Assembly (NCBI GenBank): GCA_902795095.1
Contig: CADBKB010000055.1
Location: 1-14,599, forward strand
Source: Oscillospiraceae bacterium
Lineage (GTDB): Bacteria; Bacillota_A; Clostridia; Oscillospirales; Oscillospiraceae
Reading direction: 5' to 3'
Length of the DNA stretch: 14,599 nt
A program made the position numbers and the translations under genes. The notes under the pieces were generated by a model. It saw nothing but the letters and a program-made list of their open reading frames with translations. It was not told where the DNA came from and ran no database searches. This document shows, one piece after another, positions 4,453 through 14,181 of this stretch; within the stretch, counting starts at the first letter, position 1, and the number at the start of each line of letters is the position of its first letter.

Positions 4453-4893
4453 TCAGATCAGCTCCGCGGCGCTGTGTACCAGCTTTGCCGCCGTGATCCG
4501 GCCGCCGCGGACATAGGGCGAGAGCTTCTCGCCGGTCTTTCCGATGCCGCTGCCGCCGGAGGTGGCAAAGACCGTGATCTCCTTCCCCGTCCAGTCGTAG
4601 CCTTTGCAGAAGGTGTTCACCACATTCGGCGCGCCGCCGTACCAGATGGGAAAGCCGAGATAGACCGTGTCGTAGTCGGCGAAGCCGTCGATCCTGCCCG
4701 CCACCGGGACGTCCTTCTTCCCGAACTTCTCCCGGTTGCACCGGGCCAAGGGGTTGGTCCACCGCAGATCCGCGGCGCTGTAGGGCGTCTCGGGCCGAAT
4801 CTCAAAAAGGTCGGCGTCGATGGCCGCGGCCAGCTCCCGGGCGACCTTGGCCGTAGCGCCCTGGGCGCTGAAATATGCCACAAGGGATTTCAT
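4453..4893 (-). CDS. Flavodoxin family protein
   Basis: A 146-residue short-chain flavodoxin-like protein that should bind FMN and act as a cytoplasmic one- or two-electron carrier or quinone/disulfide reductase. The phosphate-binding loop is at the N-terminus (YFSAQGAT, residues 7-14). The FMN-flanking loops are GFPIWYGGAPN (80-90) and ATSGGSGIG (110-118). It resembles the flavodoxin_4 family common in Clostridia. The start is ATG 4893 with GGAGGGG (4902-4908, minus strand) eight bases upstream. It is the last gene of the ohrR-gpx-flavodoxin operon, 18 bases after the peroxidase stop, so a role in peroxide or redox stress is likely. Its electron partner is unknown. Confidence 0.9.
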   Translation of the reverse strand: MKSLVAYFSAQGATAKVARELAAAIDADLFEIRPETPYSAADLRWTNPLARCNREKFGKKDVPVAGRIDGFADYDTVYLGFPIWYGGAPNVVNTFCKGYDWTGKEITVFATSGGSGIGKTGEKLSPYVRGGRITAAKLVHSAAELI

Positions 4894-4911
4894 AGCTGCG
4901 TCCCCTCCGGC

Positions 4912-5457
4912 TCACAGCGCTGCGGCGACTGCGGCGCGAACTGCCTGCATATCCTCCGTGGGCTCAAAGCGGGCAATGACCTTGCCCTGCCGGTCCACCA
5001 GGAACTTGGTGAAGTTCCACTTGATGTACGCCTTGTCGCCGAAGGCCTTGTTGTTCAGATCCGCGAACTTCTTCAGCGCGGCATTTTTCAGCCCCTTGCC
5101 GAAGCCGGTGAAGGGCTTTTCCGTCGCCAGATAGGCAAACAGCGGGTCCGCCCCTTCCCCGTTAACGTCGAGCTTGGCAAACTGGGGGAACTCCGTGCCG
5201 AACTTCAGGGTGCAGAAGTCGTGGATCTCCTCCTCGGTGCCCGGCGCCTGGTTGGCAAACTGGTTGCAGGGGAAATCCAGGATCTCAAAGCCCTGCGCCC
5301 GGAACTCCCGGTACATGGCCTCCAGGGGATCGTAGTGGGGGGTGAAGCCGCAGCCCGTGGCGGTGTTGACGATCAGCAGCACCTTGCCCGCGTAGTCGCG
5401 GAGGCTGACGTCATTGCCCTGTCTGTCTTTGACTGTAAAATCGTATACCGTTGACAT
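4912..5457 (-). CDS. Glutathione peroxidase family (thioredoxin-type) peroxidase
   Basis: A 181-residue GPx-family peroxidase reducing hydrogen or organic hydroperoxides. The peroxidatic cysteine is C36 in NTATGCGFTPHY (a cysteine, not selenocysteine). The rest of the catalytic set is visible: Q70 in FANQAPGTEEEI, W147 and N148 in KWNFTKFLV, and the conserved FPCNQF at 62-67. A further cysteine, C82 in HDFCTLKFG, lies at the resolving-cysteine position of thioredoxin-dependent GPx enzymes, so thioredoxin is the more likely reductant than glutathione, which most Clostridia do not make. The start is ATG 5457; its RBS AAGGAGG (5466-5472, minus strand) overlaps the stop of the upstream regulator gene, so the two are tightly coupled. 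Substrate preference is inferred from the adjacent organic-peroxide sensor. Confidence 0.94.
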   Translation of the reverse strand: MSTVYDFTVKDRQGNDVSLRDYAGKVLLIVNTATGCGFTPHYDPLEAMYREFRAQGFEILDFPCNQFANQAPGTEEEIHDFCTLKFGTEFPQFAKLDVNGEGADPLFAYLATEKPFTGFGKGLKNAALKKFADLNNKAFGDKAYIKWNFTKFLVDRQGKVIARFEPTEDMQAVRAAVAAAL

Positions 5458-5470
5458 CTGTAATTCCTCC

Positions 5471-5911
5471 TTATGCTTTGGATTCCATATGGGCGAGCGC
5501 TTTGTAGGTCAAAGCGTACAGCGTCTTGAATTCCTCCGGGCTCAAGCCCATGCAGCGGGCCATCGCCGGGGGGATGGCGGCGGCCTGCTCCCGCAGGTCC
5601 CGGCCCGCCGACGTGAGCGTCAGCCGCAGCAGCCGCTCGTCCTCCGCGGCCCGGGTCCGGGTGAGATAGCCCGCCCGGTCCAGCCGCTTGAGCACCGGCG
5701 TCAGCGTGCCGTAATCCAGGTGCAGGCATTCGGAAAGCTCCCGGGAGGAGACCTCCTCCCGCTCCCACAGCACCATCATGACGATGTACTGGGTGTAGGT
5801 GAGATTCAGCTTCTTCAGATAGGGCCCGTACTGCCGGACCAGCTCCTTGGCGCAGGCATAGAGGGGAAAGCACACCTGATTGTCCAGCCGGAGCATTGCG
5901 TAGTCGTCCAC
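5471..5911 (-). CDS. OhrR-type MarR-family organic-peroxide sensor/repressor
   Basis: A 146-residue MarR-family winged-helix repressor that closely follows Bacillus OhrR in layout. The N-terminal LRLDNQVCFPLYACAKEL places C14 where the peroxide-reactive Cys15 of Bacillus OhrR sits. The dimer and core segment follows (YGPYLKKLNLTYTQYIVM), then the recognition helix region LHLDYGTLTPVLKRLD and the wing RTRAAEDERLLRLTLT. Oxidation of C14 by organic hydroperoxide should release DNA. Three further cysteines (C20, one in SECLH, one in ARCMG) could act as partners, so one- or two-Cys chemistry is open. The start is GTG 5911 with AAGGAGG (5921-5927) nine bases upstream; the next in-frame ATG (5896) is too far from the RBS, and the ATG at 5918 is in another frame. 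It is the first gene of the operon, with its own promoter and operator-like repeats upstream. Confidence 0.93.
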   Translation of the reverse strand: MDDYAMLRLDNQVCFPLYACAKELVRQYGPYLKKLNLTYTQYIVMMVLWEREEVSSRELSECLHLDYGTLTPVLKRLDRAGYLTRTRAAEDERLLRLTLTSAGRDLREQAAAIPPAMARCMGLSPEEFKTLYALTYKALAHMESKA

Positions 5912-6279: not shown

Positions 6280-9200
6280 TTACTTCAGAGCTCTGTACAG
6301 GAACGTCACGATCTGGCCGCGGGTGCAGGTGGCGCCGGGGCTGAAATGGGTGGCGTCGGTGCCGTTGGTGATATTCTTCTCCACCGCCCAGAGCACGGCC
6401 TCATAATAGAAGGCGCTGCTCTGGATATCGACGAAGGGATGCTCTGTGCTGCCCGGCGCGGGCGTTCCGGCAAAGCGGTGCAGGAAGGTGACCACCTGGC
6501 CGCGGGTGCAGCCCTGGTCCGGGCTGAAGGCGGTGGCGGAGGTGCCCTTGGTGATCTCCTTCTCCACAGCCCAGAGGACCGCCTTGTAGTAGAACGCGCC
6601 TTCCTTGACGTCCACGAAGGGATTCGTTCCGCCCGACGGCTCTGGACAGCCTGCCGCACGCCAGAGGAAGGTGACCACCTGGCCGCGGGTGCAGGTCCGG
6701 TCCGGGCCAAAGTGGGTGGCGTCGATGCCGTTGGTGATCTGCGGCTCGTGCTCATAAGCCCAGTAGACCGGCGTGAAGTAGAATTTGCTTTCATCCTGAA
6801 CGTCGTCGAAGCGGAAGGGCGGCTCCGGCTCGACCTCGATGATCTCGCCCTCGATCCACTTGCCGTAGAGGGTCATGTCGCCCGCGACCGCGGTGTTGAA
6901 ATTGAACTTGCTTGTGCGCTCGGCGTCCTTGTACCAGCCCACGAAGGCGAAGCCCTCCTCCGTGGGATCGGCAGGTTTTGTCAGCTTCTCGCCCGATTTC
7001 ACGGTCTGCGGCGGAGGCGATACGCCGTGCTCGCCCGCATCGAAGGTGACGGTGCAGTTGAAGGGGATCGTTTGCGCCTTGCTCCACCCGGCATAGAGCC
7101 AGATATCCCCCATGATGGGCGTGTCGAAGTCGAATTTTTCGGTGCAGGCCTTGTCCGAATACCAGCCACCGAAGAGCCAGCCGCTCTCCTTGGGCTTGTC
7201 CGGCACGGTTGCTGTCTTGCCCGTTTCCACAAGCTGCACCTCAGGGGCCGTGCCGTGGCCGTTGGCGACGAAGGTGACGGCGTTGGGGATCTGCGATCTG
7301 ACCCGCCGCCAGCCGCCGTACAGGTCGATATCCTTCGTGATGGGCTGGGCGAAGTCAAATTTGTTCCGGCAGCTTGGCTCCGTATACCAGCCGAGGAAGG
7401 CCCAGCCCGGGACGCCCTCAGTGCCCCCCGGAGCAAAGGGCCGCAGCATGGTCCCGCCGTCGGCCACCTGCTGCTCCACGATCGCGTCCTCGCCGGCATA
7501 GTTGGTGTTGTTGGCATGGACGGTGACGGTGCGGTAGAATTCCTCGCCCTCCCGGAGGGGAACCAGCTCCACGGCGCAGTCCGGCATTGTGAACTTGAAT
7601 TTGTATGTGGCGTGATCGTTGGTCTCGAGCGTCACGGGAAGCTCGGCATTGATCGCGAACCTCTCGTACGGCGCTCCGCTCAAGGGCTCGGGCAGGCTCA
7701 GCAGCACCTCCGTGCCGGCGGGGGCGTCAAAGCTCCAGTCGCGTCCGTAATTGATCGTATTGCTTCCGATTTTGAGCTGGAACCAGGGCGGTCTTCCGAT
7801 GCCGCCGTCGTCGTTATTCACCGAGAGGGTGTGCGGCTCGAGCCCGTAGAGATGCTCTGTCCAGAAGACAGCGCCGTTGGGCCCGGAGCTCGTCTGCGGG
7901 ATGATGGCGGTCACGCCGTCCTCGGCGCTGATGCCATTGACCTCATTCTCGGAAATGCCGCCCTTCTTCCCGCCGATGTCCATCCAGCCCAGGTCGACAT
8001 AGCCCACGTACTGGAACGAGACCTCGCCCTTGCCGCCGAAGCAGAAGCTTCCCCTGTCGGCGCTGTAGACGTCGATCCACACAACGCCGTCGGCCACGTC
8101 AAGCTCCGCGCCGCCGGTGCGGGAATAGATGCCTCTTGGCTGGCCGGGGTTGTTCTGCTCGAGGAAGAGATAGACTTCGTCGTCGGAATAAATGCCGACG
8201 TCGTAGGCCTCGATGCCGCTTGAATCCATGGTGTGGCTGCTGTCCCCGTCGGTCCGCAGCTCCATATATGCTCTGGCGCTGTCAAGGATCAGCACGGAGC
8301 CGTCGTTCTCCGCAAGAATGCCCCGGACCTGATCGTACTCGTCGTTCGTGATGATCTCGACGGCGGCGCTGTCCTCCAGCAGAAGATCCTGCCCGGTCCG
8401 GATGCCCACGAATCTGATCATCGTATCGGCAGTGCTCCGGGCGCCGCACTCGGGATAAATGGAGATATCCGCCCTGTCCATGATGCGGATCTCCCCGGCG
8501 GCGTCAATGCCGACGCTGGTGAATCCGACCAGCTCGCCGCCCGCGTGCGTGTTGTCGGGCTCGGAGACAGACATGATGTACAGGTAGTTCTTTATCGTAT
8601 TGATCGTTCCCTTGCCGGACGGACTGATGATCCGGATGCCGCCGGTGGGATTGGAGATGGCAGCGGGCTCGATGGCGCTCTTGCCGCCGGAGCGGTAATA
8701 TTCCGTCGTGTCATTTTGCACCGTCAGCTTGCCCCGGATATCCAGGACGAGGTTGCCCTCGCTGTCGGACGCCGTGCGGATGGCGCCGACGGAGGCGCCG
8801 GCGCTGTGCCGGTCGTCCCGGAACTGATCCCCGTACAGAACCAGCGTGCCGGTGAAGGTGTTGAACTCCGCGGCCACCGTATAGTCGCCGCCCAGGGGGA
8901 GCATGCTGGTTTCGTAGAGGTACGGCCCATTCCCGTCTTTCTTCATGTTCAGGATATGATTCAATCCGTCCAGACGGAGCCAGGACCGGCCGTCGTCGTA
9001 GGCGGCGGGATAGCCGTTTTGCACGTTCTTCGTTTTCATGGCCGTGGTGGGGAAGGTGTAGATCTCCACCGCCGTGGCAAGCTTCTGCGGTGGATCGTAC
9101 ACCCGCTGCACCTGGATGGTATTGCTGTAATAGATCTGTCCGTCGATGGGCAGGGCGAAGCGGTACTCGTCGGTCGAGCCGACGCTCGCGGCCTTGGGAT

Positions 9201-12200
9201 CCACAAAGTCGATGCTGCCGTTCATGGCAAGAGGCGCGCTGGCGCCCTCCAAGACGTTCCAGTTGCTGCCGCTTCGCTTCTCCACGTAGATCCAGGGAGG
9301 ATTGGCGGGGGTGCTCGTCGCCCTGGCGAAATTGTATTCCGCGCTCTTGACCTGATAGGTCAGATGCAGTTTGTCCTCCGGCTTTGCGGAGATGCTGCCG
9401 GAATTGCTGCCGGAATTGCTGAGGAAGGGATCGACCTTCTGGAGATTGACCCCCTTCAGCTCGGTGTTGCCCTTGATCTCGATCTCGTAGGTCTGGGTGT
9501 TGCCCCGGGTCTTCTTCGGATATCTGAGCACGGCTCCGTCGCGATCCGTCACCTCCAGGCACCGCTTTTTCACGGGCATGTAGCCGGGCGCGATCTCGAG
9601 CTGGAACTGGACGATGTCGTTCTCCGCCACGATCAGGCGCCCTGCGTCGTCCCTGCGCCATTTGCCCAGGGGGTGGAGCGAATACGCCTGCGTATCCGCG
9701 CTCAGCGTGACCCGGTGCGAGTCGGAGATCAAATGCTTCTTGTACGTCTCCATATCCTCGGTATGGCACGCCAGGCTGTCGTCATAATACACCGTGCCGG
9801 AAAACAGCTTGGCCGTGTTGCCGATGTCCATCTCGGCATCTGTCACTGCGTCAAAGAAGATATTCCTCGCGCGGTACGCGGCGCCGCCGTTCCGATTGCT
9901 GTCGCAGATATCCATATAGATCATAATATCGCCCTGGATATTGATATTATCCCTTGCCCGCAGGCCGTTGCACTCATAGCTGCGCCGTTCCGTGGGAGTC
10001 ACGTCGGCGTCGACGCTCACGGTCACGTCAGCCTGATCCAGGATGGATATGTCGCGGTTGGAGTAAATGCCGCAGGAGGTGAATTTCATGTTTTTCGGCG
10101 TATACTGACCGGGCTGCTCGGTCTTGAGCCGGATATCCAGCTTTGCATCGCCGGAGACGGTGACGCTGCTGCCCTGGCCGTTTGTATTGGAATCGTTGCC
10201 GGAGATGCCGCGCATCCCCCGGTCGCTCTTCATGTTAATATTCAGCCTGCCGCCCGTATCCGACGTGATCTCCAGATCGCCGCCCACATCCATATTGAAA
10301 AGGATGCCGTAGAGCCCACTGGTGGTGATGGTGTTCGATTTGCCCTGCAGCACGACCTTGAAATCCGTGGGCAAAGTGGAGATGATATTGATCGAATCGC
10401 CGTCGTAGTTGCTCAGGTACAGGACGTTGTCGTCGCTGTAATACGCGATGCGGTCCGGGTCGTCCTTCAGATCCGCGTAGCCGTCGTAGTGCATGGAACC
10501 GTCCTTGTACATGCTGTGGTTGAACTCCAGCTTGGTTCTCTTTTTTGTAGACGGATTCGTCAGGTAGACGCTGGTCTCGATCGGCTCATATTTCGCCTCC
10601 AGCCAGATGAACTCGTCGCCCTTGAACTCGTAGCCCATGGCGATCCGGTCGTAGGAGCAGGTCGTGGTGGCGGAGGTGGGATCATCGATCTTGAGGTACT
10701 CCCCGCCGTGCTTGATCTCCCACCTGTAGAATCTGTAGCCCTCGGGCAGGTTGGGGGAGATCGTGAAGGTCTCTCTGCCCTTGGTCAGGTGCATCCGGCT
10801 GGATTTGCCGTGGCTGACCATGACGAGGATATCCTTGAAGTCGAAGTCGTAGGTCCGCGTGTAGGCGCAGGTTTTGCACTCGGCCCAGAGCCGGCCCTGC
10901 TTTGCCTCCGGCGCCGGCTTGGCCCGCCAGTTTGAGGGCACGGAATACGTAAAGTCATGGGGCTCCGTGTCGAATTTTTCGTTGCAGCCGACCTCACTGC
11001 AGGTGAACCAGTGCTGGAACGAATTGTAATCCTCACGATAGCGGTGCAGATATTCCTCGGATTCCTCCTCATCAAAGCTCCAGTGCTTGTGGTAGCGGAT
11101 GGGCGGGAGCTCCTTGGTCTCATAATAGCCGCAGTCGGTGCAGGTGCTCCGGCTTTCGCCGGGCTTGGTGGCCGTGGGGAAAACCTTCGTCTCCCACTGC
11201 GTCCAGCTGTGCGCCTGGATGCCCCCCAGCTTCCGCCCGCAGTCGCACACCAGGAAGTGGCCGGCTGCGGGGTTGTCCTCGCTGCAGGCGGCTTCATACT
11301 TGTGGACGTGATTCGGATCCAGCTTCGGGATGGTGATGGACTCTGTGCGGCCGCAGACCGCGCAGGTCTTGGCTTTCCGCCCCGTTTCCGTGGCGGTGGC
11401 GTATTTTGCAAACAGCCAGGGGCCGAACTGGTGGTCGGAAGGCGGGTTGACCTCGGGCTCCTTTCCGCAGCCGTCGCCCACGCACATTCTGGCGTGCTGC
11501 GTCGCGCTGATGGAATGGAACTGATAGTCGTGGGCCGCCTCCAGCTTGGCGCTCCGGGATCGCACGGTTTTTCCGTTCTCGGGATTGGTCACCGCGCAGT
11601 AGTAGTAATAGGTCTCGCAGCAGGCGTCTGCGGGGATCCAGGTGGTCAGGGTATTCGTATCGGCGCCATAGGTCGCGTAGTGGCCAGAATACTCGTCGTA
11701 GTAGTCTTCAATCTTCGTTCCCGTTCCGCCCGCCGTTTTACTCACGTACCACTGGCACTCGGCGTCGTCCCGCGCCCGCAGGGAGATGGTGAACTGGTTT
11801 TCGTAGTAGTCGCCGTTCGGGTCGGAGGTCTTGCCGCGGATGATCTCGCGGGGCTGGACAGAAATGATGGGCAGGCCGTCCCGGCTGGCGCCGCACAGGG
11901 TGCAGAAACCGTCGGAATCCCAGACGTGGGTGTGTTCGAAGCCCTCGCCCACGTTGCATTTTTCGCAGGTGCAGTCACTGTCGCAGTCGCACAGGATGAC
12001 GCAGTGGCCGCACTCGGCGCAGTAGTGATCCTCCCAGAAATTGGACTCGATGCACACTGCCTCGCCGCAATCGCAGCCCGCGCTCTCGGAGTTGTCGGCG
12101 CAGCACAGGAGGCACAGGCCGCAGTCGCCGCAGAAGTCCTCCATGCAGGAGAAGCTCTCCCAGCACTGCTCGCAGCGGTGATCCTTCGCCTCAAAATCGG

Positions 12201-13326
12201 GGTTCTCTACGCACATGCCGCAGGCGCAGCCGGCGCTTTCGGAATTGTCCGTGCAGCAGTCGACGCACAGGCCGCAGTACTGGCAAAGCTCCTCACCGGT
12301 GTTGCAGGCAGGGTTCTCACAGTTCGGGCAGATATGGTCCTCAAATTCCGAGCTCGCCACGCACAGGCCGCAGATGCAGCCGGCGCTGACGCTGTTCTCC
12401 AGACAGCAATCCGTGCACAGATAGCACTCCTCGCAATATCCGAGGGAGGCGCAGTCAAAGCACCTGCCGCACTGATCGCAAGGATCCAGCCCGCAGTTTT
12501 CCATGCAGTGGGAGCCCTCGCCGCCGGTGGGGCACCACTCCTCAACGTGCTCGCCGCAGCTCGGGCAGTGGGCGCCGGACTCCACGCAACAATCCAAGCA
12601 AAGCGCTTCGTCCGCCTTGCTGCACTTTTCAAACACCTCTAAGCATGCATTGCAGTTGATGCAGTGCAGGCCCTTTTCTTCAATGCAGTCGTAACAGTGC
12701 TCGCAGTTCGTGCAGTATGAGCTTTCGTGGTCCTCCAGGAAGCATTCTACGCAGCCCTTGCACAGGAGGCAGTGCTCGAGGCAATGGGCGTAGTATCCGT
12801 CGACGGAGTCGAAGCTGGGGCAAATGTCCCCGTCTTCCTCCTTTCCGACCAGGCATGCGCCGCAATATTTGCACCATGCATTATTATCATTATGGCACTT
12901 GATGCACACCTGCTTTGTGCATTCCTCACATTCCGGGCCGGTATCGCCCTCATCGAAATGCCCCAGGCATTTTCTGCAGTGATCCGCCCCTTCGTAGCAA
13001 AGATCACAGAGGATGCATTCACCGCAAAACGATGTTGAGTGTTCCTGACATGCGCCGCAGTCTTTGCAATGAAATTCGTCATAACAATAATGACATCCGC
13101 CGCACAATACGCATATGTAGTCATTTGACAGAAGATAGTCGGTGACGTCCATATAGTCGCCTTTATTGAAGTAATAATTCATCGTACAACCGCACATTGG
13201 ACAGTCGTATTCATAGCACTGTTCATAGTCGTCCCATGACGCGATCGCGTCAAACGGCAGCGTCCCCGCCACCATGATCAGGGCGAGCAGTAAGCTCAGT
13301 GCCCGGATGGCTGTTTTTCTTCTCAT
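6280..13326 (-). CDS. Giant secreted S-layer protein with a cysteine-rich N-terminal region, beta-helix tracts, Flg_new repeats and SLH anchor
   Basis: A 2348-residue extracellular protein. The chosen start is ATG 13326, with AAGGAG (13333-13338) six bases away; a GTG 105 bases upstream is open but adds a hydrophilic stretch without RBS support. The signal peptide is residues 1-29 (RRK, then SLLLALIMVAG, cleavage near DAIA-SW). Residues 31-480 contain about 90 cysteines, mostly C-x-x-C. Residues 484-597 look Ig-like. Residues 599-830 are H-x-W/F and C-x-x-C-G repeats. Two stretches rich in D-I/L-x-I-x-(D/N) turns (about 965-1180 and 1495-1810) look like right-handed beta-helices. Residues 1931-2157 are three Listeria/Bacteroides-type repeats ending in GW/KW, and 2171-2348 are three SLH domains that should bind secondary cell-wall polymer. 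No catalytic motif was recognised. It stands alone, with its own promoter and 3' hairpins. Adhesion, metal binding or a structural S-layer role are all possible; the function is unknown. Confidence 0.9.
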   Translation of the reverse strand: MRRKTAIRALSLLLALIMVAGTLPFDAIASWDDYEQCYEYDCPMCGCTMNYYFNKGDYMDVTDYLLSNDYICVLCGGCHYCYDEFHCKDCGACQEHSTSFCGECILCDLCYEGADHCRKCLGHFDEGDTGPECEECTKQVCIKCHNDNNAWCKYCGACLVGKEEDGDICPSFDSVDGYYAHCLEHCLLCKGCVECFLEDHESSYCTNCEHCYDCIEEKGLHCINCNACLEVFEKCSKADEALCLDCCVESGAHCPSCGEHVEEWCPTGGEGSHCMENCGLDPCDQCGRCFDCASLGYCEECYLCTDCCLENSVSAGCICGLCVASSEFEDHICPNCENPACNTGEELCQYCGLCVDCCTDNSESAGCACGMCVENPDFEAKDHRCEQCWESFSCMEDFCGDCGLCLLCCADNSESAGCDCGEAVCIESNFWEDHYCAECGHCVILCDCDSDCTCEKCNVGEGFEHTHVWDSDGFCTLCGASRDGLPIISVQPREIIRGKTSDPNGDYYENQFTISLRARDDAECQWYVSKTAGGTGTKIEDYYDEYSGHYATYGADTNTLTTWIPADACCETYYYYCAVTNPENGKTVRSRSAKLEAAHDYQFHSISATQHARMCVGDGCGKEPEVNPPSDHQFGPWLFAKYATATETGRKAKTCAVCGRTESITIPKLDPNHVHKYEAACSEDNPAAGHFLVCDCGRKLGGIQAHSWTQWETKVFPTATKPGESRSTCTDCGYYETKELPPIRYHKHWSFDEEESEEYLHRYREDYNSFQHWFTCSEVGCNEKFDTEPHDFTYSVPSNWRAKPAPEAKQGRLWAECKTCAYTRTYDFDFKDILVMVSHGKSSRMHLTKGRETFTISPNLPEGYRFYRWEIKHGGEYLKIDDPTSATTTCSYDRIAMGYEFKGDEFIWLEAKYEPIETSVYLTNPSTKKRTKLEFNHSMYKDGSMHYDGYADLKDDPDRIAYYSDDNVLYLSNYDGDSINIISTLPTDFKVVLQGKSNTITTSGLYGILFNMDVGGDLEITSDTGGRLNINMKSDRGMRGISGNDSNTNGQGSSVTVSGDAKLDIRLKTEQPGQYTPKNMKFTSCGIYSNRDISILDQADVTVSVDADVTPTERRSYECNGLRARDNINIQGDIMIYMDICDSNRNGGAAYRARNIFFDAVTDAEMDIGNTAKLFSGTVYYDDSLACHTEDMETYKKHLISDSHRVTLSADTQAYSLHPLGKWRRDDAGRLIVAENDIVQFQLEIAPGYMPVKKRCLEVTDRDGAVLRYPKKTRGNTQTYEIEIKGNTELKGVNLQKVDPFLSNSGSNSGSISAKPEDKLHLTYQVKSAEYNFARATSTPANPPWIYVEKRSGSNWNVLEGASAPLAMNGSIDFVDPKAASVGSTDEYRFALPIDGQIYYSNTIQVQRVYDPPQKLATAVEIYTFPTTAMKTKNVQNGYPAAYDDGRSWLRLDGLNHILNMKKDGNGPYLYETSMLPLGGDYTVAAEFNTFTGTLVLYGDQFRDDRHSAGASVGAIRTASDSEGNLVLDIRGKLTVQNDTTEYYRSGGKSAIEPAAISNPTGGIRIISPSGKGTINTIKNYLYIMSVSEPDNTHAGGELVGFTSVGIDAAGEIRIMDRADISIYPECGARSTADTMIRFVGIRTGQDLLLEDSAAVEIITNDEYDQVRGILAENDGSVLILDSARAYMELRTDGDSSHTMDSSGIEAYDVGIYSDDEVYLFLEQNNPGQPRGIYSRTGGAELDVADGVVWIDVYSADRGSFCFGGKGEVSFQYVGYVDLGWMDIGGKKGGISENEVNGISAEDGVTAIIPQTSSGPNGAVFWTEHLYGLEPHTLSVNNDDGGIGRPPWFQLKIGSNTINYGRDWSFDAPAGTEVLLSLPEPLSGAPYERFAINAELPVTLETNDHATYKFKFTMPDCAVELVPLREGEEFYRTVTVHANNTNYAGEDAIVEQQVADGGTMLRPFAPGGTEGVPGWAFLGWYTEPSCRNKFDFAQPITKDIDLYGGWRRVRSQIPNAVTFVANGHGTAPEVQLVETGKTATVPDKPKESGWLFGGWYSDKACTEKFDFDTPIMGDIWLYAGWSKAQTIPFNCTVTFDAGEHGVSPPPQTVKSGEKLTKPADPTEEGFAFVGWYKDAERTSKFNFNTAVAGDMTLYGKWIEGEIIEVEPEPPFRFDDVQDESKFYFTPVYWAYEHEPQITNGIDATHFGPDRTCTRGQVVTFLWRAAGCPEPSGGTNPFVDVKEGAFYYKAVLWAVEKEITKGTSATAFSPDQGCTRGQVVTFLHRFAGTPAPGSTEHPFVDIQSSAFYYEAVLWAVEKNITNGTDATHFSPGATCTRGQIVTFLYRALK
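6283..6816 (-). other. Three SLH domains (C-terminal cell-wall anchor)
   Basis: Residues 2171-2348 of the giant protein. Each unit has a PFxDV-type start (FRFDDV, PFVDV, PFVDI), an A-V-x-W-A-V/Y-E helix, an I-T-N/K-G turn and CTRGQ(V/I)VTFL. The cysteines before TRGQ fall at about 2212, 2273 and 2334, exactly 61 residues apart. SLH domains bind pyruvylated or similar secondary wall polymers, so the protein is held non-covalently with its N-terminus outward. Confidence 0.93.
6856..7536 (-). other. Three Listeria/Bacteroides-type (Flg_new, InlB B-like) repeats
   Basis: Residues 1931-2157 of the giant protein. Each unit of about 75 residues starts with a V-T-V/F strand and ends with FxGWYxDxxCxxKFDF-(10)-LYxGW. 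The three copies end at LYGGW, LYAGW and LYGKW. These small beta-grasp-like modules act as stalks or adhesive spacers in Gram-positive surface proteins. Confidence 0.88.
9394..9420. repeat. Two 12-bp tandem repeats encoding an NSGSNSGS linker
   Basis: GCTGCCGGAATT is repeated twice head to tail, followed by GCT. On the coding (minus) strand it gives SNSG-SNSG, a flexible linker near residue 1305. The in-frame 12-base unit could gain or lose copies by slippage without breaking the frame. Confidence 0.75.
11887..13236 (-). other. Cysteine-rich extracellular region (about 90 Cys in 450 residues)
   Basis: Residues 31-480 of the giant protein. By hand count there are about 90 cysteines, nearly one in five, mainly as C-x-x-C and C-x-x-C-x-x-C with acidic and His residues between (for example CGECILCDLC at 101-110, HCINCNACLE at 221-230). 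A degenerate unit of about 20-25 residues of the form C-x-x-C-(x)n-H-C-x-x-C-x-A/H-C repeats along it, followed by three larger modules at 303-448. The pattern resembles arrays of zinc-ribbon or rubredoxin knuckles more than EGF-like disulfide domains, but this is unproven. The DNA at the 5' end (12,900-13,200) is more AT-rich than the rest of the gene. Confidence 0.85.
11983..12420 (-). repeat. Three tandem ~50-residue CC-x-(E/D)NS-x-SAGC modules
   Basis: Protein-level repeats at residues 303-352, 353-403 and 404 to about 448. Each starts LC-x-x-CC, runs through (E/D)NS-x-SAGC-x-CG-x-x-C, then E-DH-x-C-x-x-C and ends in C-x-x-CG. Units 1 and 2 are 50 and 51 residues; the third diverges at its end (HCVILCDCDSDCTC). 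They are similar enough to be internal duplications within the larger cysteine array. Confidence 0.82.
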
Positions 13327-13525
13327 TTCATTCTCCTTTCCGCCTGTATCCGGAGGCGTGTCGCAGTTTCCGGCGGGAGACCGGGGTCTTGCGGTCTCCT
13401 TCCAATGATCATCGTCTCTTTTCTCGTTCACATTCGCACCGTCGCCGGCGCGGCTTCCCAGTTTTTGTTAATTCGGTGTTAGATTTCCTCAATTATATAT
13501 TAGCATGGTTTAATATCCATCGCAA
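13327..13525 (-). promoter_or_regulatory. Promoter and long leader of the giant S-layer gene
   Basis: On the minus strand TTGCGA (13520-13525) and TAATAT (13497-13502) are 17 bases apart, giving a start near 13490 and a leader of about 165 bases. An overlapping TATAAT a few bases further downstream is an alternative -10. The leader has small hairpins: GGAGACC/GGTCTCC (13376-13382 with 13393-13399) and CGCCT/AGGCG (13341-13345 with 13354-13358), the latter just before the RBS. I do not recognise a known riboswitch in it. Confidence 0.5.
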
Positions 13526-13692
13526 GGATATTTGTACAAAAAATACGGGATTTTATTCGATATCATTGTATCGTTTTAACAATTTGCATCATTTTTCGGA
13601 GCGTTTTGGAAATCATGCGCATTGAAGAAATCAGCTCCGCTCCGCCTTCCGCAGCGTCACAGCGCCGGCGCTTCCCTTCTCTCTTTTGGGGG

Positions 13693-13760
13693 TGGATTTT
13701 CCCGCCCCGTTGTGGTATCATTTTTGCGTCCCCCCGGGACGAAGATCCACACCCAAGGAG
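13693..13760 (+). promoter_or_regulatory. Promoter and RBS left in front of the broken phosphatase gene
   Basis: TATCAT (13716-13721) with TGGATT (13693-13698) 17 bases upstream is a moderate promoter. AAGGAG (13755-13760) is a full Shine-Dalgarno ten bases before ATG 13771. Both look functional although only 12 codons follow. Confidence 0.45.
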
Positions 13761-13770
13761 ACCCAGTGCA

Positions 13771-13809
13771 ATGGTCAGGATCCTGTTTGTCTGCCACGGC
13801 AGCAGATAA
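13771..13809 (+). pseudogene. 5' remnant of a low-molecular-weight protein tyrosine phosphatase gene
   Basis: The frame reads MVRILFVCHGSR and then TAA. LMW-PTP proteins of Clostridia typically begin M-x-ILFVCHGNICRSP, where the cysteine opens the catalytic P-loop C-x5-R-S. Here the match stops after CHG, in the middle of the P-loop, and the following DNA is AT-rich with no trace of the rest. The well-formed promoter and RBS argue that this is a true gene start and not chance. A break at this point may reflect a deletion or the insertion (and later loss) of another element. It cannot be active. It is short, so chance similarity is possible. Confidence 0.55.
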
Positions 13810-13990
13810 ATACAATCTAAATGTTTTAAGTTCTCCAGTTTTGTATATTATTTCGTCACTTTCTTAATAGATTTATTTGATTTTAAGGATTGCAAAAATG
13901 CCCTTACACCACCCGTACACCAAACACGCCTGATTTGATGTTTTTACACCAATTCGATACAAAAATCGTCATGATTTAAAAAACAGCCGA
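13810..13990. other. AT-rich non-coding stretch with three TACACCA repeats
   Basis: No gene was found. The base composition drops sharply to AT-rich right after the broken phosphatase start. TACACCA occurs at 13905-13911, 13916-13922 and 13945-13951, all in the same direction, the first two 11 bases apart. The spacing and AT-rich setting are like protein-binding arm sites at the ends of integrated elements, but no integrase gene is in the window. Confidence 0.5.
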
Positions 13991-13995
13991 TAAAG

Positions 13996-14039
13996 AGAAC
14001 CCAGAGCCTGCCGCATTGGCAAGCGCCGGGTTCTTTTTT
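13996..14039 (+). terminator. Intrinsic terminator
   Basis: AGAACCC (13996-14002) pairs with GGGTTCT (14028-14034). Inside, GCCTGCC (14005-14011 region) pairs with GGCAAGC (14018-14024 region) with one mismatch. The stem runs into six T residues (14034-14039) on the plus strand. No intact plus-strand gene lies just upstream, so it probably belonged to whatever the broken phosphatase transcript once carried, or it shields the downstream promoter. Confidence 0.85.
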
Positions 14040-14110
14040 GTCGATATGAGGAAAAGAACGTATATATGATTCTTTTTGATAAATTTTTCCCAAAAGCGGC
14101 ATAAAGACGA

Positions 14111-14139
14111 TTGCTTTCCCAATGAAAGCATAGTAAAAT
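14111..14139 (+). promoter_or_regulatory. Promoter of the flavoenzyme gene with an overlapping palindrome
   Basis: TTGCTT (14111-14116) and TAAAAT (14134-14139) are 17 bases apart. The inverted repeat TGCTTTC (14112-14118) / GAAAGCA (14124-14130), with a five-base centre, overlaps the -35 and spacer, a usual place for a dimeric regulator. Transcription should start near 14146. The gene's RBS AAAGGAG (14167-14173) lies eight bases before ATG 14182. Confidence 0.6.
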
Positions 14140-14181
14140 CATAACAGGGATCTCCCCAAAAAAAGAAAAGGAGACTGACTC

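Follow-up and report, generated by a model that had tools for sequence, protein, structure and literature searches.

Among described surface proteins, those nearest in kind to the subject of this report make up the CxxC-dense coat of Giardia, a eukaryote that dwells in the low-oxygen gut. According to the available text of two reports, its variant-specific surface proteins (VSPs) cover the cell surface and, like its high-cysteine membrane proteins, are acidic and dense in CxxC motifs (PMC1762436, PMC5355454). VSPs contain about 12% Cys, the protein HCNCp has 13.9% Cys and 77 CxxC motifs, and the detectable cysteines of VSP TSA 417 are all disulfide-bonded (PMC1762436). Highly transcribed VSPs carry 18-21 CxxC motifs on average, with 9-10% Cys (PMC5355454). 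The subject here is the cysteine-rich N-terminal region, or head, of a 2348-residue bacterial protein. It is encoded on a 14,599-nucleotide stretch of DNA (the window) from an Oscillospiraceae bacterium (contig CADBKB010000055.1, assembly GCA_902795095.1). Heads of this family contain about 19% Cys and about 42 CxxC motifs each, in contrast to roughly 9-12% Cys in VSPs and 13.9% in the much larger HCNCp. The likeness is one of kind, and Pfam shows no homology. Although Pfam includes a VSP model, eight bacterial heads matched no family at E ≤ 1, with no VSP, LIM, RING, PHD or FYVE match.

Treble-clef and cross-brace zinc fingers (LIM, RING, PHD, FYVE) share with the heads a CxxC turn followed by a short helix, and they dominate the lists of structural matches considered below. 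These zinc fingers are intracellular and mostly eukaryotic, whereas the heads are tandem arrays of 56-127 Cys each, on exported proteins, and have no significant match. Zinc-binding proteins at or near the Gram-positive surface, as is proposed for the head, include pneumococcal PhtD and corynebacterial ZnuE/F/G, as far as the available text describes them (PMC3842936, PMC12445094). The zinc ligands of PhtD are three His and a Glu, and its gene shares an operon with adcAII (PMC3842936). In contrast, Pfam found no such partner among the 7 window neighbours of the head gene. SLH-anchored InlB B-repeat proteins have their anchor and stalk domains in common with the head protein. To our knowledge, the known ones bear leucine-rich or Ig-like heads instead of Cys arrays. 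Metallothioneins have few or no aromatic residues, unlike the 450-residue head (15 F, 6 W and 20 Y), and multihaem c cytochromes differ in that the heads have no excess of CxxCH. Searches of the open-access literature in PubMed Central yielded no title or abstract opening that described such heads in bacteria.

A conserved array of Cys and His

The head gene lies on the reverse strand, where it opens with an ATG at 13326 and its stop codon ends at 6280, with a GTG at 13431 as an alternative, longer start for the same reading frame. A first-pass annotation of the window, made from its letters, had reported about 90 Cys within residues 31-480, rich in CxxC. The observation proved exact, at 90 Cys. 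The head (11887..13236) is 20% Cys and has 44 CxxC motifs, compared with a mean of 17.7 (standard deviation 3.4, maximum 30) when its residues were shuffled 2000 times. It also has 20 His, 91 Asp+Glu and 16 Lys+Arg, and Lys+Arg minus Asp+Glu comes to -75.

Searching 5.8 billion proteins three times yielded 36, 8 and 1105 matches, the third at E ≤ 1e-5 and represented by the best 120 of the 1105. The 151 listed proteins that were examined include the window's own protein (P0001, 100% identity). In all 151 a Cys-dense head starts within the first 120 residues, which is expected since the query was the head. These heads have a median length of 437 residues (87 to 631), 18.6% Cys, 24% Asp+Glu and 2.8% Lys+Arg, and the CxxC number given above refers to the same set. 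For alignment, heads shorter than 250 residues and near-duplicates were dropped, leaving 94 non-redundant heads, and the 425 of 1135 columns that were at least half filled were kept. The columns conserved at 90% or above are 68 Cys, 8 His and a single Gly. The number of Cys per head correlates with head length (r 0.96). A relative that is 68% identical over the region (P0002) keeps 88 of the 92 Cys-bearing columns of residues 31-495 compared with 232 of the 372 other positions. Because Cys is kept so much better than the rest, the Cys pattern is maintained by selection and does not stem from an error of frame or sequencing. Shuffles and conservation across the 94 heads likewise rule out an origin by chance or artefact. 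The head is not generally faster-evolving than the tail: in nine pairs of proteins, identity at non-Cys head positions was below that of the tail in 4, above it in 4 and roughly the same in 1.

One clue to the role of these columns is what replaces Cys. Reconstruction on a tree gives 100 changes from Cys in the 83 Cys-majority columns, with 16 to His, 16 to Ala and 11 to Asp. The fraction going to His compares with 2.0% of 10583 other changes in the heads (Fisher p 2.3e-10) and with 1.7% expected for C-to-H from BLOSUM62. Conversely, 6 of the 17 His-majority columns hold 14-21 Cys across the 94 heads. In the motif GC-x-X-[GDE]-x-C, the residue at X is His 93 times, Cys 46 times, Asp twice and Lys once. 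In an earlier set of 36 heads, the 95 Cys-majority columns contained 217 residues other than Cys, of which 68 were His.

Structure prediction, which the first-pass annotation had proposed, gave a confident AlphaFold2 model of the whole head (33 rows, mean pLDDT 84.3), and residues 278-392 modelled as a 115-residue piece scored higher (17 rows, mean pLDDT 90.7, pTM 0.75). Repeat unit 1 (residues 295-343, 12298..12444), with the pattern CxxCxxCxxCC-x8-CxCxxC-...-HxCxxC-x4-C, lies inside this piece. Unit 2 (residues 345-396, 12139..12294) lies mostly inside it, and unit 3 (residues 398-442, 12001..12135) was found by text match. In the model a CxxC turn leads into a short helix, as in treble-clef and cross-brace zinc fingers. 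LIM, RING, PHD and other zinc-finger proteins account for at least 22 of 39 Foldseek rows for the head and 25 of 32 for the 115-residue piece, none of them significant. Sequence searches with the single protein were silent on the head: Pfam found no family there, the best NCBIfam stretches all fell within residues 1942-2348, and the head had no match among PDB sequences at E ≤ 10. A profile of the family returned 17 rows from the PDB sequences, comprising zinc-finger, palmitoyltransferase, RING, iron-sulfur, haem and other proteins (E 0.0014 and above).

Almost only the presumed ligands are conserved, Cys scale with head length and one locus (L003, described below) has the head alone on a linker, which together suggest a metal-braced tip or stalk. 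The head is probably an array of zinc-finger-like modules built on Cys4 and Cys3His metal sites, most likely for zinc, with a structural role. As the outer N-terminal tip of a long SLH-anchored surface protein, it would consist of small modules in tandem, each a CxxC turn followed by a short helix and held by sites with about 4 ligands per ion. The roughly 100 ligand columns (83 Cys-majority and 17 His-majority) divided by 4 would give, as simple arithmetic, about 25 ions per head. Such sites would cross-link the chain in place of disulfides, in an anaerobe that seems to lack Dsb and VKOR enzymes. The result would be an adhesin-like protein whose tip or stalk is stiff and highly acidic.

Possible alternatives: disulfides, stores, redox coats and electron conduits

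Several observations weigh against the proposal of metal-braced modules. One is the precedent of Giardia itself, whose surface proteins are dense in CxxC and, in the case of TSA 417, have every detectable Cys disulfide-bonded (PMC1762436, available text). Perhaps the cysteines of the heads also pair after export to make a tough coat or adhesin tip. Megalin is the top Foldseek row for the head, although not a significant one, and Cys counts of heads lean toward even numbers (53 even, 41 odd). Other observations would instead fit an iron-sulfur or haem conduit that carries electrons at the surface. With a two-unit profile, 16 of 19 rows from the PDB sequences are iron-sulfur subunits (E 0.078 to 9.8, all weak; the other 3 are NLRP1), FwdG (E 0.0086) and a nine-haem cytochrome (E 0.057) appear among the rows of the head profile, and CxxCxxCxxxC occurs 309 times in the 94 heads. 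However, none of those E-values is convincing. The ferredoxin-type motif CxxCxxCxxxCP occurs 5 times in the 94 heads. Of the 3904 CxxC motifs, 129 (3.3%) have His as the next residue, fewer than the 6.2% of non-Cys residues that are His. Neither ferredoxin nor haem motifs are therefore favoured. In addition, the loading of iron-sulfur proteins usually takes place within the cell. A conduit of this sort is highly improbable. Pairing in disulfides is easier to imagine but still unlikely. Conserved His beside Cys, and the interchange of the two, argue against it, and the even lean of the heads has no parallel in the whole mature proteins (47 even, 47 odd). No confident match to a characterised disulfide-bonded family, which the first-pass annotation had named as an outcome that would refute it, came from Pfam in the eight heads or, at significance, from Foldseek. 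Finally, Pfam profiles for VKOR, DsbA and DsbB each match 0 of 15 head-bearing genomes compared with 3, 8 and 6 of 14 control genomes, respectively. A 2025 study of Clostridia used the same three Pfam families and, according to its available text, found some clostridial enzymes (PMC12453122). Therefore the absence characterises these genomes rather than the class as a whole.

Two further alternatives are a metal store and a redox coat. If the head stored or scavenged zinc or another soft metal at the surface, in the manner of PhtD feeding AdcAII, it would make use of its very many ligands and high acidity, and surface zinc scavengers are known (PMC3842936, PMC12445094, available text). Nevertheless, no metal transporter was found among the 7 window neighbours by Pfam or at 16 other head loci by eye. 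A Zur-like box, sought by its consensus, was no better than chance upstream of 13 heads, with 9 to 100 of 100 shuffles as good. Fixed, conserved ligands in confidently modelled modules would also suit structural sites better than labile ones. The metal store that the first-pass annotation had offered as one of three functions has therefore gained no support so far, and there is little chance that it is the right one. The same annotation had offered a redox-active coat, in which reversible surface dithiols would buffer oxidants. The window gives this some encouragement, with same-strand genes for MarR, glutathione peroxidase and flavodoxin and a divergent oxidoreductase of the old yellow enzyme (OYE) type, but inspection by eye did not pick out such genes at the 16 other head loci, several of them truncated. 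Moreover, conserved His and Cys/His interchange would not be expected of plain dithiols, and a redox coat is very unlikely. Metal-stabilised structure, the third function, is the best fit, and a tip or stalk would be favoured over a store or a coat. The underlying claim that reduced thiols bind metal is supported indirectly, by sequence and modelling: the conserved and interchanging His, the 15 genomes without Dsb or VKOR matches, and nearest folds that are mostly, if not significantly, zinc domains.

Carrier proteins and their distribution

In the window's protein the head follows a start codon and signal-peptide-like segment (residues 1-30, 13237..13326; all features given here are on the reverse strand), a hydrophobic stretch with zero Cys that was judged by eye to be a putative export signal. 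Behind the head is an Ig-like segment (residues 486-600, 11527..11871), recognised by eye from QPR...QWY...DAC...YYYYC and by its recurrence in relatives, with no Pfam match here. It is followed by three HxH ... CxxCG-like repeats that look like zinc ribbons by eye and have no Pfam match (residues 599-828, 10843..11532). The same repeat pattern is also seen behind the head in relatives. Three Flg_new / InlB B-repeats (residues 1932-2160, 6847..7533; PF09479 E 3.6e-37, limits by eye) precede the SLH region, the cell-wall anchor (residues 2171-2348, 6283..6816, limits by eye). PF00395 matches the latter in three stretches (E 7.6e-23), at 80.7 bits against a curated cut-off of 20.8, in agreement with the SLH anchoring that had been annotated. 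Because the N-terminal head comes after a signal-like segment and before Ig-like, B-repeat and SLH parts, an adhesin-like display role is suggested.

The head is not tied to one kind of carrier. Among the listed proteins it is accompanied by SLH, Flg_new, dockerin (PF00404), Big_2, leucine-rich repeat and EF-Tu-like domains, and some C-termini resemble, by eye, Bacteroidota sorting signals or membrane anchors. A minimal form (L003:9890-12373) consists of a Cys-rich head, a long (GGGTTT)n Gly/Thr linker and a hydrophobic C-terminal segment, with no Pfam match. Since it has little beyond these parts, the head is displayed here for its own sake. Source names among the listed proteins include Clostridia, Oscillospiraceae, Bacteroidaceae and Agathobaculum hominis, and so belong to two phyla. 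Under a rough C-terminal label, the Bacteroidota-like heads are not a single clade. The smallest clade that holds the 19 labelled heads has 36 of the 94 tips, although the label misses members. Exported surface proteins also show matches to EF-Tu domain 2/3 (P0026, P0074 and others, and L055:12435-15302), of which the one in L055 falls just under the Pfam cut-off.

Across genomes the head is patchy. In two genome families, head profile A4 matches 11 of 296 and 28 of 295 genomes at E ≤ 1e-3, or 4 of 296 and 10 of 295 at E < 1e-10. One genome (G443) has head matches on four contigs. Patterns from close relatives, scanned over a collection of 84,980 species genomes, found three loci, all in metagenome-assembled genomes (goat omasum, roe deer cecum and goat reticulum). 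A single-protein search of 200 genomes around G003 found 0 of 200 but also missed the head of G003 itself, and is therefore uninformative.

A wider scenario can be drawn from this, plausible enough to state but offered tentatively. Clostridia and Bacteroidota of the gut and rumen may share a transferable, zinc-cross-braced head that has some 30 ions, takes the place of disulfides and grows by duplication of its units. It would be carried on SLH, dockerin, membrane-anchored and Bacteroidota-type proteins, be switched by a 7TM-LuxR regulator (see below) and be an independent counterpart of the Giardia CxxC coats. The general view is that anaerobic Firmicutes avoid cysteine in the proteins they export. 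A head family with source names from two phyla, and with up to 127 Cys in one of the 94 heads, runs opposite to this. If the sites do hold zinc, metal cross-bracing would give anaerobes a substitute for disulfides in their surface proteins, the metal content of the cell surface would become a variable of gut ecology, and it would become testable whether 7TM-LuxR sensors play a role in surface display. A surface head folded by metal would be an unusual mode of building for a cell that avoids oxygen. The relative from a named species, Agathobaculum hominis (P0113), makes the idea open to experiment.

Neighbouring genes and the 7TM-LuxR regulator

Pfam identifies seven neighbours of the head gene in the window, which encode a Na/Pi cotransporter, a response regulator, a histidine kinase, a flavodoxin, a glutathione peroxidase, MarR and the divergent OYE-type oxidoreductase. 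The MarR, glutathione peroxidase and flavodoxin genes stand in a row downstream of the head gene (4453-5911, reverse strand). Upstream of it is an AT-rich gap (13327-14181, G+C 0.44 compared with about 0.6 in most of the window). Rfam, at its own cut-offs, found no RNA element there or elsewhere in the window.

A different neighbour recurs in the clostridial genome family of G002. Ten of its genomes have strong head matches, and the upstream side is readable in nine, L002 being cut at a contig end. At 7 of these 9 head loci, the divergent neighbour encodes a protein of 357-385 residues with HisKA_7TM and LuxR-type GerE domains, assigned by Pfam for 4 of the 7 and by alignment for the rest. The divergent position beside the head has no such gene in L052 and L058. 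Anywhere in the genome, the 7TM-LuxR gene is found in 9 of the 10 strong head genomes compared with 38 of 285 others (Fisher p 2.9e-7, with kinship ignored). The adjoining regulator may control the head gene. An exclusive pairing can be rejected, since the regulator is present in 47 of 295 genomes and, by eye, lies mostly beside other exported proteins at 20 further loci.

Related genes appear at some other head loci. L001 has upstream a weak 7TM-like protein, a HATPase protein, a LuxR-type response regulator and an SLH protein, and L003 has a LuxR-type response regulator nearby. Such regulator genes were not seen adjacent to the head in L048, L049, L050 or the window. More generally, the 7TM-LuxR protein, a one-component membrane regulator, often adjoins genes for exported proteins (L051, L053-L057, L059, L082-L101). 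Among the 20 further loci, L089 and L090 have Cys-rich exported proteins next to it. The one in L089 (8867-11446), divergent from the 7TM-LuxR gene, is an open reading frame of at least 860 residues that runs off the contig end. It has no Pfam match, and with 209 Cys and 88 CxxC motifs it is denser than the head.
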